From Halocatena salina (GTDB taxonomy: Archaea; Halobacteriota; Halobacteria; Halobacteriales; Haloarculaceae): a DNA stretch of 64,000 bases. The translations under genes and the position numbers were made by a program. The stretch is from assembly GCF_023115355.1 (NCBI RefSeq), contig NZ_CP096019.1:2170001-2234000 (forward strand), given 5' to 3'. The number at the start of each line of letters is the position of its first letter. The stretch's first letter is position 1. Below are positions 5,282 through 38,980 of the stretch, piece after piece. A model generated the notes under the pieces. That model was given only the letters and a program-made list of their open reading frames with translations, made no database searches and was not told where the DNA came from.

Positions 5282-5515
5282 ATGACGGACGAATGGATGT
5301 ACGTCGTGGCCGTCATCGGCATTGGCGTCGCGTTTCTCGTCGGGCTGTTCTTCAATCAGGCATTGTCGACGCTCATCGTGCTCGTATCGCTGATAAGTTC
5401 GCTGGGCGTTCTGTATCTCGGGTTGCGGTTCGTTCGGGCCGTCGAACGGATTGCCAGTGCGGTCGAACGAGGACCGTCGGACCGTCCGAACGGTTCCGAC
5501 CGAAACCGATCGTGA
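5282..5515 (+). CDS. Small two-helix membrane protein, unknown function
   Basis: The 77-residue product has two hydrophobic helices, at about residues 6-25 (V-V-A-V-I-G-I-G...) and 28-50 (L-S-T-L-I-V-L-V-S-L...), followed by a charged tail rich in Arg, Asp and Ser. It is the only plus-strand gene inside the menaquinone cluster, starting 110 bases from menB and ending 14 bases before the menD stop, so it is convergent with menD. It has its own TATA-like element. The GC-rich third positions and compact fit between genes argue that it is real. No family was recognised; the role could be structural or regulatory in the membrane where menaquinone is used, which is only inference. Confidence 0.6.
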   Translation: MTDEWMYVVAVIGIGVAFLVGLFFNQALSTLIVLVSLISSLGVLYLGLRFVRAVERIASAVERGPSDRPNGSDRNRS

Positions 5516-5529
5516 TCGCGCTCAGCGGC

Positions 5530-34944: not shown

Positions 34945-35432
34945 CTAGTAAAAAGAAACGACAGCGCGGCTCTCGCACCCACAGCGGCGGAACACACAAA
35001 AACCGTCGTGGTGCTGGCCATCGTGGCGGACGTGGGCGCGCGGGTCGCTCCAAACACGAGTTTCACAACTACGAATCGGTCGGCAAACACGGCTTCAAGC
35101 GCCCAGAAAAGGTCAAAGAGACCGTCGAAACGATCGACGTTCGAACGCTCGATGAGAACGCGCCGCTGTACGCTGCCGAAGGGGCAGCCGAAGAGACTGA
35201 GGACGGCTACGCGATCGACGTGCGCGATGTCGTCGAGACGAGCACGGGCACCGATGTAGTGAAGGTGCTCGGTGGCGGACAGGTTCGGTCCACCCTTGCG
35301 GTGACTGCCGACGCCTTCTCCGACAGCGCGACCGAACTCATCGAGAGTGAAGGCGGGCGCACGATCCTCACCGAGCGCGGTGAAAAACGTCAATCCCAAC
35401 TGGAGGACCAAGAGGACGAGGACGAGGAATAA
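34941..35432 (+). CDS. rpl15: Ribosomal protein uL15
   Basis: The 163-residue product starts at the ATG overlapping the uL30 stop (an open frame 72 codons upstream is an artefact of GC-rich DNA). The basic N-terminus has K-K-K-R-Q-R-G-S-R-T-H and G-A-G-H-R-G-G-R-G-R-A-G, as uL15 needs to thread into 23S rRNA. The C-terminus ends in a short Glu/Asp run. Its last base is shared with the first base of secY. Confidence 0.97.
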   Translation: MTSKKKRQRGSRTHSGGTHKNRRGAGHRGGRGRAGRSKHEFHNYESVGKHGFKRPEKVKETVETIDVRTLDENAPLYAAEGAAEETEDGYAIDVRDVVETSTGTDVVKVLGGGQVRSTLAVTADAFSDSATELIESEGGRTILTERGEKRQSQLEDQEDEDEE

Positions 35433-36904
35433 TGAGTTGGAAGGAGACCGCCGCCCCAGTCCTCACCCGGATGCCGACCGTCGCCCGTCCGGAGGGCCAC
35501 GTCCCGTTCCGCCGAAAGCTCGGATGGACGGCCGGCGTGCTCGTGCTGTATTTCTTCCTCACGAACGTCTACCTGTTCGGGACTGGTGGTCAGGGTAGTG
35601 GTGACCCTTACGGACAGTTCCGGTCGATCCTTGCGGGCGGGCAAGGAACCGTCTTGCATCTGGGGATCGGACCGATCGTGACCGCGAGCATCGTGTTGCA
35701 GCTGTTGGGCGGGGCGAACCTGCTCGGGTTGGACACATCGAACCCGCGCGATCAGGCGCTCTATCAGGGGCTACAGAAGCTGCTCGTGGTCGTGATGATC
35801 TGTCTGACCGGCCTGCCGATGGTGTTCATGGGGGGAATGATCCAGCCGAATACACAGCTCGGCGCGCAGCTCGGCGTTGGAGTTGTCGGTGTCCAGTGGC
35901 TGATCTTCGCTCAGCTGTTCGTCGGCGGTCTCCTCGTCCTGTTCATGGACGAAGTCATCAGCAAGTGGGGTGTCGGGAGTGGTATCGGGCTGTTCATCAT
36001 CGCTGGCGTCAGCCAGCGGCTCATCGGCGGTCTGATCCGGTGGCCAGGACTCGGTTCAGGTAGTGGGACCGGGTTTTTCGTCGCGTGGTTTAAGATCCTG
36101 ACCGGAGAAATCCCGATCGGCCCACCGCTCTCCCCACAGGGATTGGAGGCCATCTTCATGGATCCTGGACAGATCGTTGCGCTGTTCACGACAGTGTTGA
36201 TCTTCGTGATCGTCGTGTACGCCGAGAGCGTCCGCGTCGAGATTCCCCTGAGCCACGCCAAGGTGCGGGGCGCACGCGGCCGCTTCCCGGTGAAGCTCAT
36301 CTACGCGAGCGTCCTGCCGATGATCCTCGTCCGAGCGCTACAGGCCAATATCCAGTTCATCGGGCGGATCCTCTACGGACAGATCGGCGGGCAGATGCCC
36401 AACTGGTTGGGAACGTATCAGACCACCCAGGCAGGGCTACAGCCTACTGGTGGGTTGTTTTACTATTTCGCTCCGATTCGGTCTCAGAACTGGATTGGAG
36501 CGCTCTCGACACAGCCCGGAGAGATCCTGCTTCGGATTGGGGTCGACCTCTCGTTCATGGTGCTCGGCGGTGCGTTGTTCGCCATGTTCTGGGTCGAGAC
36601 GACGGATATGGGTCCGGAAGCCACCGCAAAACAGATTCAAGATTCGGGGATGCAGATCCCCGGCTTCCGGCGCAACCCCGGCGTGATGGAGAAGGTGCTC
36701 GAACGGTACATTCCCCAAGTGACGGTGATCGGCGGGGCGCTAGTCGGTCTACTCGCCGTCGGTGCGAACATGCTCGGAACGATCGGCGGCGTTTCGGGGA
36801 CCGGGCTGCTCTTGACGGTCTCGATCACCTACAAGCTGTACGAGGAGATCGCAGAAGAACAGTTGATGGAGATGCATCCCGTGATGCGGGACATGTTCGG
36901 TTGA
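35432..36904 (+). CDS. secY: Preprotein translocase subunit SecY
   Basis: The 490-residue protein is the channel subunit of the Sec translocon with about ten membrane helices. It begins M-S-W-K-E-T-A-A-P-V-L and includes the family segment G-T-V-L-H-L-G-I-G-P-I-V-T-A-S-I near residue 72 and R-V-E-I-P-L-S-H-A-K-V-R-G near 268. It partners SecE and Sec61-beta, which are not in this window. Placement at the end of the spc-type cluster, sharing one base with uL15, is typical. A T-rich stretch about 25 bases after the stop is the likely terminator. Confidence 0.97.
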   Translation: MSWKETAAPVLTRMPTVARPEGHVPFRRKLGWTAGVLVLYFFLTNVYLFGTGGQGSGDPYGQFRSILAGGQGTVLHLGIGPIVTASIVLQLLGGANLLGLDTSNPRDQALYQGLQKLLVVVMICLTGLPMVFMGGMIQPNTQLGAQLGVGVVGVQWLIFAQLFVGGLLVLFMDEVISKWGVGSGIGLFIIAGVSQRLIGGLIRWPGLGSGSGTGFFVAWFKILTGEIPIGPPLSPQGLEAIFMDPGQIVALFTTVLIFVIVVYAESVRVEIPLSHAKVRGARGRFPVKLIYASVLPMILVRALQANIQFIGRILYGQIGGQMPNWLGTYQTTQAGLQPTGGLFYYFAPIRSQNWIGALSTQPGEILLRIGVDLSFMVLGGALFAMFWVETTDMGPEATAKQIQDSGMQIPGFRRNPGVMEKVLERYIPQVTVIGGALVGLLAVGANMLGTIGGVSGTGLLLTVSITYKLYEEIAEEQLMEMHPVMRDMFG

Positions 36905-36921
36905 CCTACTATTCTTTTATC

Positions 36922-37051
36922 CCCACTTTTTTTACGCTCGGGTGAGCTTCGCTCACCACTCACGTAAAAAACCTGGACTAAAAAACGCCGCTCGCTGCGC
37001 TCGCGGTACTGCGTCTTTTCCGCTTCCGCACCGCCATCGTTCCGCCTCCGC
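36922..37051 (+). repeat. Left copy of gene-3'-end element
   Basis: This copy starts with cccac and a run of seven T 17 bases behind the secY stop. A 7-base-stem hairpin follows (ggtgagc-ttc-gctcacc, 36941-36957), then aaaaaacctggactaaaaaacgcc in two parts, the inverted motif cgctcgctgcgctcgcgg and a tail of about 50 bases. The right copy at 37785-37912 matches it in reverse complement over nearly its whole length. Confidence 0.85.
36927..36933 (+). terminator. T-run terminator of the ribosomal protein-secY transcript
   Basis: Seven consecutive T lie 22 bases after the secY stop. A T-rich run alone is enough for intrinsic termination in archaea. The hairpin comes after the run, not before it, so this is not a bacterial-type terminator. 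Confidence 0.55.
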
Positions 37052-37202
37052 GCGTTACGATTCCTGTCAATCATCGATGTTTGGTGTGCCAGCCCCGTCG
37101 ACGACTCGTACTAGCTCAGGACAGTGCTGACGAAACCCAGAGAAAGCGCCGCGTTAGCGGTACTGGCAGTGGGTCACCAGCATTGTGACCAGACAGACGG
37201 TC

Positions 37203-37411
37203 GCGCGCGCTGTGTCAGTGTCTCGATCATCTCGGTTAGTTCACGGGAATCGTCGGGAGTAAACACCGATTGGATCACGTCTCCATCACGCTGCTCGTGA
37301 ATTCACAGCCCGCGTCGTTGTCGAACCAGCATTCCACGATCGTCTCACCAACAGCGCAGTAACGCGTGAACCGCACAATACTCAGCAACTCGTTGTACCC
37401 TCCCGCTGTGG
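37203..37411 (-). pseudogene. Frameshifted small gene remnant
   Basis: On the minus strand a frame reads Y-N-E-L-L-S-I-V-R-F-T-R-Y-C, then V-G-E-T-I-V-E-C-W-F-D-N-D-A-G-C-E-F and M-E-T, then a stop near 37275. A single frame change restores V-I-Q-S-V-F-T-P-D-D-S-R-E-L-T and E-M-I-E-T-L-T-Q. The two pieces look protein-like and together would make about 65 residues. No start codon fits cleanly and I do not recognise the family. It may be a decayed gene, or a real one with a sequencing error. Confidence 0.35.
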
Positions 37412-37784
37412 AGCAAGCCCAGCTGGCGCTTACTCGATCTGGGTGGCGTGGGCACTACCGGCGGATCGGCATGGTCTACACCAGGTCCCATCGGCTACGT
37501 CGATCACCTGGTACAATTCGGCTTTCGCAATCACCTTCCGATTCTCGATGGTCGGGCTGTTCACCGACTCGCCCTGCCGATTCCAGAACCGAAACAGTGG
37601 CAGGGTCATCTTGCTCTCTCCGCGAACGAAGTGAACGGCCTATCGTTGACTTCCCCACCACACATAAATACACTTATTGAACAGAAATATTATAGTCCAC
37701 CAATAACCCGTTTTTCCAGCGATTGTTCGGAGAGTACTAACGAGCCACTGGAAATCGGGCGTTGTTGTCGAGATTGTACCGGTA

Positions 37785-37912
37785 GCGGAGGCGGAGCGAT
37801 GGCGGTACGGAAGCGGAAAAGACGCAGTACCGCGAGCGCAGCGAGCGGCGTTTTTTAGTCCAGGTTTTTTGCGCGAGGGTAGCTCCGCTACCCGAGCGTA
37901 AAAAAAAGTGGG
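37785..37912 (-). repeat. Right copy of gene-3'-end element (inverted)
   Basis: Read on the minus strand, this copy begins cccac, eight T, acgctcgg directly after the carA stop. Its hairpin is gggtagc-gga-gctaccc (37877-37893), which pairs perfectly although its stem differs from that of the left copy. From aaaaaacctggac onward it matches the left copy closely. The two copies are inverted with respect to each other and each lies behind its gene in the same orientation. Confidence 0.85.
37900..37907 (-). terminator. T-run terminator of carA
   Basis: Eight A on the plus strand (eight T in the carA transcript) begin 8 bases after the carA stop. The run is part of the repeated element. Confidence 0.55.
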
Positions 37913-37915
37913 TGG

Positions 37916-38980
37916 TCAGTCCGCCGAAACGGTCGGTTTCGAATCGACCATCCCCAGCACATCATCGAAAAAGTCGAGCGTATCGTGTGGTCCGGGATTC
38001 GCTTCGGGATGGTACTGGCGAGTTTTGATGTCGAGGTCGTCGCTGTCTAACCCTTCGGGTGTGTCGTCGTTGACGTTGATCTGTGTGACATCGAGCTCGC
38101 CGGGATCGGAGACAGTGTAGCCGTGATTTTGGGTCGTCATCACGACCTGCCCGGTTTGAAGGTCCCGTACCGGTTGATTGACGCCCCGGTGGCCGAACGT
38201 CATTTTCTCCGTGTCGCCGCCCAGCGTATCGGCGATGACCTGCTGGCCCAAGCAGATGCCAGCCAGCGGGATCTCGCCCGCGTACGTTTCGACGAGATCA
38301 CCAGCGGCGTCGAAGTTCTTCGGATCGCCTGGACCGTTCGAGACGAAAAGGAGATCAGGAGACAGCTCCTCGATCGTCGCTTCGGTCGTGTCGTAGGGGA
38401 GCACGTGAACGGTGGCATCGCGGTCGATCAACGACGTGACGATCGAATCCTTCGCACCACAATCGATGAGGGCGACCGACGGTCCTTCTCCGTCGCGGTT
38501 GTACGTCACCGGACTATCGACTGACACCTGTGCTCCGATGTCGGTGTGATCGCTCATCGCCTCACACTGTGCGAGCTCTTCGAGCGCGTCGTCAGGGGTG
38601 ACGTCGTCGCCAGCGACGACGCCACACTGCATTGCGCCTTCCTCGCGGATGCCAATAACCAACTCGCGCGTGTCGAGGTGATCAACCGCAGGGATGTCTT
38701 CTTCGGTTAGCCACGACGCCACATCGTCGGTGAGTTCACGGGCCACGACGGCACGGGGATGAACCCGATCCGATTCGAACCGCTCGGATCGGACACCGTA
38801 GTTCCCGATGAGTGGATACGAGAACGTGAGCACTTGCTCCTCGTATGAAGGATCAGTGAGGCTCTCCTCGTAGCCGGTGTAAGCTGTCGTGAACACCAGT
38901 TCGCCGCGCGTACGGCCGGGGGCGCGAGCGCGCGCAGAAACGACCCGCTCACCCTCCAGCGCCACGTAGGCGTCCGTCAT
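37916..38980 (-). CDS. carA: Carbamoyl-phosphate synthase small subunit (CarA)
   Basis: The 354-residue protein has the N-terminal CPSase small-chain domain and a class I glutamine amidotransferase domain. The nucleophile is Cys243 in G-I-C-L-G-Q-Q, and the H-P-E of Y-H-P-E-A-N-P-G-P near residue 328 completes the triad. The usual G-I-C-L-G-H-Q has Gln in place of His, a change outside the catalytic residues. It provides ammonia to CarB, which is not nearby in this window, for pyrimidine and arginine synthesis. Two palindromes in the divergent promoter region suggest control by the neighbouring Lrp-type regulator. Confidence 0.95.
   Translation of the reverse strand: MTDAYVALEGERVVSARARAPGRTRGELVFTTAYTGYEESLTDPSYEEQVLTFSYPLIGNYGVRSERFESDRVHPRAVVARELTDDVASWLTEEDIPAVDHLDTRELVIGIREEGAMQCGVVAGDDVTPDDALEELAQCEAMSDHTDIGAQVSVDSPVTYNRDGEGPSVALIDCGAKDSIVTSLIDRDATVHVLPYDTTEATIEELSPDLLFVSNGPGDPKNFDAAGDLVETYAGEIPLAGICLGQQVIADTLGGDTEKMTFGHRGVNQPVRDLQTGQVVMTTQNHGYTVSDPGELDVTQINVNDDTPEGLDSDDLDIKTRQYHPEANPGPHDTLDFFDDVLGMVDSKPTVSAD

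Follow-up and report, generated by a model that had tools for sequence, protein, structure and literature searches.

A decayed copy, between secY and carA, of a dispersed Halocatena element whose intact members are probably led by an RNA switch

What are the two almost identical sequences of about 130 bases that lie in opposite orientation at the ends of the convergent genes secY and carA in Halocatena salina? Upon analyzing the window, i.e., the whole stretch of 64,000 nucleotides, we found these inverted arms to be real and located where the original prediction had placed them, with 96% complementarity over 93 nt (36959-37051 and 37785-37877) and a perfect 17-nt outer block common to both (36927-36943 and 37890-37906). 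The locus reads as follows.

35432..36904, plus strand: secY, the left flanking gene (Pfam SecY, 1.9e-68)
36922..37051, plus strand: left arm, with outer end CCCACTTTTTTT, a covarying hairpin, AAAAAACCTGGACTAAAAAA, and an inner palindrome, lying 3' of the ORF2 pseudogene
37070..37609, minus strand: ORF2 pseudogene of a 183-aa family, starting MTLPLFRFWNRQGESVN (profile match E 7.6e-35; three TGA and two TAA codons in frame)
37610..37650, minus strand: deletion scar, where leader RNA and ORF1 are missing relative to copy L165 of genome G005 (about 5283-5529)
37650..37790, minus strand: promoter-side remnant, with 76% identity to the region that precedes the L165 leader
37668-37664, minus strand: TATA-like TTTAT in the promoter-side remnant, read from the sequence
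37785..37912, minus strand: right arm, with outer end AAAAAAAAGTGGG, lying 5' of the ORF2 pseudogene
37916..38980, minus strand: carA, the right flanking gene (Pfam CPSase_sm_chain and GATase)

The spacer between the arms holds an ORF2 pseudogene, which bears out the suggestion of a degraded insertion, some 990 bases long, that the arms delimit. A fuller copy, with the leader and a near-complete ORF2, occupies the same site in the related species G005 ('Halobacteriales archaeon YIM A00010', genus Halocatena), and the window matches this copy, L165, at 70% across the left arm and ORF2, at 76% on the promoter side, and at 80% across the right arm and the carA end. The L165 stretch that holds leader and ORF1 is deleted from the window copy, in which a covariance model found no leader RNA; as the leader has been lost, no switch action is possible there. 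The window copy is a fossil, a decayed element, the arms of which may still work as boundaries. The element is present between secY and carA in G000, G004, and G005, and it is lacking in G001 and G006, where an unrelated spacer separates the two genes.

The window element belongs, in decayed form, to a dispersed family that extends through Halocatena. Searching the genome for further copies of the arm, as originally proposed, yielded about 30 matches, clearly exceeding chance, every one of them on contig C1 (2.53 Mb) and none on the other four contigs, with E-values from 1.6e-79 (self) and 5e-44 (partner arm) down to 3e-4. Of the six further Halocatena genomes, four held many more. A profile of the arm core located mostly inward-facing pairs, with ORF2, in either orientation, in most of the spacers. 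The inner end points toward ORF2 in all but 2 of 128 arms: arm orientation is set by the ORF of the element and not by the host genes. Neighboring genes at other copies are divergent or co-directional as well, and the arms of L046 and L052 abut the start-codon sides of divergent genes, others abutting stop codons, so that a terminator-linked repeat at gene 3' ends does not hold as a rule. The proposal that the hairpin stems differ and still pair through compensatory change was confirmed: across 92 arms from five genomes, the stem halves were copy-specific, with a score of 20.3 for matched versus 15.3 +/- 0.35 for swapped halves (0/300 permutations). Paired arms occur in the clade of G000, G004, and G005; in G001 and G006, copies mostly have a 3' arm only or no arm at all, and at the sole G003 copy no arm is detectable. 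In our genome, an extra arm sits between ORF1 and ORF2, splitting the overlapping pair, at L046, L047, L050, L051, L060, and L135.

An intact unit comprises, in order, a TATA box, 31-32 nt, a structured leader RNA, ORF1, ORF2, and one or more arms whose outer ends point outward. ORF1, which was revealed by the armless G003 copy as a second small gene directly upstream of ORF2, encodes 47 aa with a CxxC zinc-finger-like motif, and its stop is overlapped by the start of the 183-aa ORF2 through ATGA (gene models in the loci came from a simple codon-usage script). The invariant ORF2 residues include W43, C44, C47, C52, and H54, i.e., C44-x2-C47-x4-C52-x-H54, a motif on the basis of which zinc binding and a corresponding fold are putative. 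The ORF2 family occurs in 7/7 Halocatena genomes, with 14 intact copies in our own, and is essentially absent from the other sampled Halobacteriales, the weak profile matches in G071 and G220 resembling chance or short remnants; the nearest named relatives of the protein are in H. pleomorpha. Searches of ORF2 against Pfam, NCBIfam, and PHROGs returned no match, and hence no transposase, and Pfam likewise matched it neither to a RAYT (Y1 HUH) protein nor to SWIM (CxCx(n)CxH), in place of whose CxC it has CxxC. Viral, phage, and plasmid searches gave nothing convincing, a PDB sequence search gave noise only, and AlphaFold models of four H. pleomorpha proteins of the family had a pLDDT of 40. G001 and G006 each hold two ORF2 subfamilies (L175-L212; about 48% and about 40% identity to the ORF2 of our genome), one with a 3' arm and the other armless. 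As a separate observation, a palindromic mini-element of ~51-55 bp (TCGCC-hairpin-GGCTGCTAACC-hairpin-GGTGATG) breaks up ORF2 at one and the same codon (WC|RPC) in two species, with five copies in each, namely L173 (4660-4715), L213, L214, L174, and L088 in H. pleomorpha and L166-L170 in G005; its stems differ but pair, and a similar sequence adjoins an arm of our genome at C1:1736934.

Copies, of which a Halocatena genome holds up to about 35, often occupy conserved sites. At least one flank is shared with a G005 element locus at 19 of our 21 loci, and both flanks at 9 of those 19, secY-carA among them. In an ORF2 tree, however, the 26 G005 copies formed one clade (99*) and the copies of G000 and G004 another (100*); in the close pair G001 and G006, orthologous copies often grouped together. 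Since sites are shared yet copies cluster by species group, the family has undergone concerted evolution, that is, homogenization within each genome, probably via gene conversion, which is plausible because haloarchaea are polyploid and convert genes. Constraint on the proteins is strong (dN/dS within genomes 0.04-0.15). The left and right flanks of a single element of our genome match two different G005 elements in two instances (L053 versus L144 and L159; L136 versus L156 and L157), and one-sided flank matches suggest rearrangements with break points at elements.

Upstream of ORF1, intact copies carry a conserved leader that folds as a four-way junction of P1, a variable hairpin, P3, and P4. 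Among 91 leader copies, 98.1% of cells were paired and 8 pairs were changed on both sides, above the shuffle and slide controls, in an alignment fitted to the model, which favors the structure; a first alignment not fitted to the model contained 7 pairs with compensatory changes. In P1, 4/7 pairs were changed on both sides and 99.4% of cells were paired, again with lower values for the shuffle and slide controls. A TATA-like box stands 31-32 nt before P1 in 90/90 copies, from which we infer that transcripts probably begin near P1. The P1 3' strand has two complementary partners, the P1 5' strand and a strand just before the start codon, and both helices were copy-specific in Halocatena and in 20 loci outside the genus (0/300 permutations), with a weaker covariation of the start-codon helix within Halocatena (13.42 versus 12.87 +/- 0.19) than outside it. 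Most of the predicted folds favored P1 alone. As the two helices are mutually exclusive, the arrangement has the design of a translational switch, and on these sequence grounds we infer that the leader would turn translation on and off. At the gathering cut-off, no Rfam covariance model matched the leader, and five loci outside the genus gave none at E<=1. The P4 loop of 6-7 nt had 56% identity between orthologues versus 95% for the remainder of the leader. It differs between near-identical orthologues, e.g., L181 versus L195 and L188 versus L211, yet identical loop words turn up in copies that are distant from one another. A fully random loop was rejected, as the hexa- and heptaloops follow a soft pattern with U common at position 2 and a purine at position 6, a pattern that does not favor a guide role. 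Divergent leader matches also occur in Halocatena away from ORF2, at G000 C1:1968624-1968741, 2149299-2149413, and 2292104-2292219 and at L265 (G003).

The leader extends well beyond the genus. Our home-made covariance model, with E-values that are rough, located it in 98 of 392 sampled Halobacteriales and in 40 of 95 genera, and nowhere beyond Halobacteriales in a phylum-wide sample. In the forty loci that we read outside Halocatena, the leader usually ends at, or close before, the start of a gene for a small cysteine-rich protein; behind it lie genes for SWIM proteins (Pfam SWIM 1.8e-6 at L257), genes for CxxC proteins, or the first gene of an operon that combines a Csm3-like Cas7 with another RAMP-like gene. 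Such Cas7/Csm3-like operons follow the leader in G238, G083, G230, G029, and Haloarcula halobia, the last with an HNH nuclease gene as well. An array-less, CRISPR-derived RAMP system of haloarchaea is known as HRAMP (PMC8730458, PMC12669027), and we apply the label by resemblance to the array-less systems of these review papers, the matches being Csm3 in PADLOC at 1.4e-5 and Pfam RAMPs at 0.029, below the cut-off. One protein query found no HRAMP-like Cas7 in Halocatena. In Halobacterium salinarum and Natrinema pellirubrum, the model stayed below threshold, yet the region preceding the first gene folds alike and has an overlapping start-codon helix. At L253, L259, L264, L286, L288, L287, and L289, a switch-like leader precedes HRAMP-like (Cas7/Cas5) operons, among them, to judge from the sequence, one on a plasmid of Halobacterium salinarum.

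We consider it likely that the window holds a decayed copy of a dispersed, genus-wide element whose intact unit is led by an RNA switch before ORF1 and ORF2. Transcription would begin at P1, and the leader would act as a translational switch: while P1 closes the four-way junction, the strand next to the start codon of ORF1 would be free and both proteins would be made, and once the 3' strand of P1 re-pairs with this strand, neither would be. The trigger could be a metal ion, some metabolite, or the unit's own proteins, and our leading guess is protein feedback or a metal signal, because most genes behind the leader encode small cysteine-rich proteins. The arms may serve as unit boundaries or terminators, and gene conversion would keep the copies alike. 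A bolder extension, which we regard as rather improbable, is that the leader, with its P4 loop hypervariable among copies and among orthologues, is the RNA component of haloarchaeal RNA-protein systems, with HRAMP effectors in some genera and zinc-protein partners (SWIM, CxxC, ORF1/ORF2) in others, and that Halocatena multiplied chromosome-wide modules of this kind.

An ordinary transposable element, with the arms as terminal inverted repeats, ORF2 as an unrecognized transposase, and the window copy as a dead insertion, would account for the many copies, for arms oriented as termini, for solo copies made of an arm only, and for the G001/G006 spacer as an empty site. Against it, and equally against the MITE-like sequence that had been proposed, we saw no target-site duplication by eye in the outer flanks of 13 arm pairs, ORF2 matched no transposase, and positions are common to several species. 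Moreover, copies lie nearly exclusively on the main chromosome despite large further replicons (G005, 0/31 elsewhere; G006, 22/23 on C1), most are intact at a dS of 0.6-1.2, and arms are undetectable throughout one G001/G006 subfamily as well as at the lone copy of G003. We therefore judge this explanation unlikely. A REP-like palindrome, in which the ~130-nt arm itself is the unit and has spread to gene 3' ends as a bidirectional terminator, would fit the outer T-run, which is at most about 25 nt away from the stop codons of secY and carA, the terminator-like hairpin and T7 at the inner end of an intact arm, and the few solo arms behind stop codons (L058, L059). It is very unlikely given that arms are found some 40 nt ahead of start codons as well (L046, L051, L052, L054, and L060), that their orientation tracks ORF2, and that a terminator scan found no terminator-like site in the window arms. 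That one terminator was duplicated and inverted locally between secY and carA would explain why the window arms are each other's best match within the genome, which gene conversion explains too; the genome-wide matches, the copies in four congeners, and the coding remnant within the spacer, which is common to the family, refute such a single event, to which we assign almost no likelihood.

The preferred reading, a decayed copy of a switch-led unit, resembles riboswitches and protein-responsive leaders in its conserved, structured 5' leader, apparently at the transcript start, in the competition of P1 with a start-codon-blocking helix, both covarying, and in the repetition of the RNA before several gene families; it differs in that the leader falls outside the Rfam families, has a hypothetical ligand or protein partner, and carries a P4 loop unusually variable between orthologues. 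What the element has in common with REP/RAYT and MITE/IS systems is scattered palindromic DNA whose oriented ends enclose or neighbor an ORF, but it shows neither transposase signature nor target-site duplication and keeps to conserved, nearly chromosome-restricted sites. Outside Halocatena, the same RNA precedes some haloarchaeal SWIM zinc-finger genes, and ORF2 has a similar C..C....C.H, although with CxxC versus the SWIM CxC and with no Pfam match. The same kind of leader precedes RAMP-gene operons outside Halocatena, whereas the Halocatena leader precedes zinc-protein genes.

To our knowledge, few natural riboswitch-like leaders are known from archaea. The leader would constitute a new and testable class of archaeal structured RNA with sharp predictions, namely two competing helices and a fixed start site. 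Its place before zinc-protein genes and before HRAMP-like operons points to a candidate RNA partner or regulator of HRAMP. Overall, the Halocatena family offers a natural case of dispersed genes that, at conserved sites, evolve in concert within each genome.
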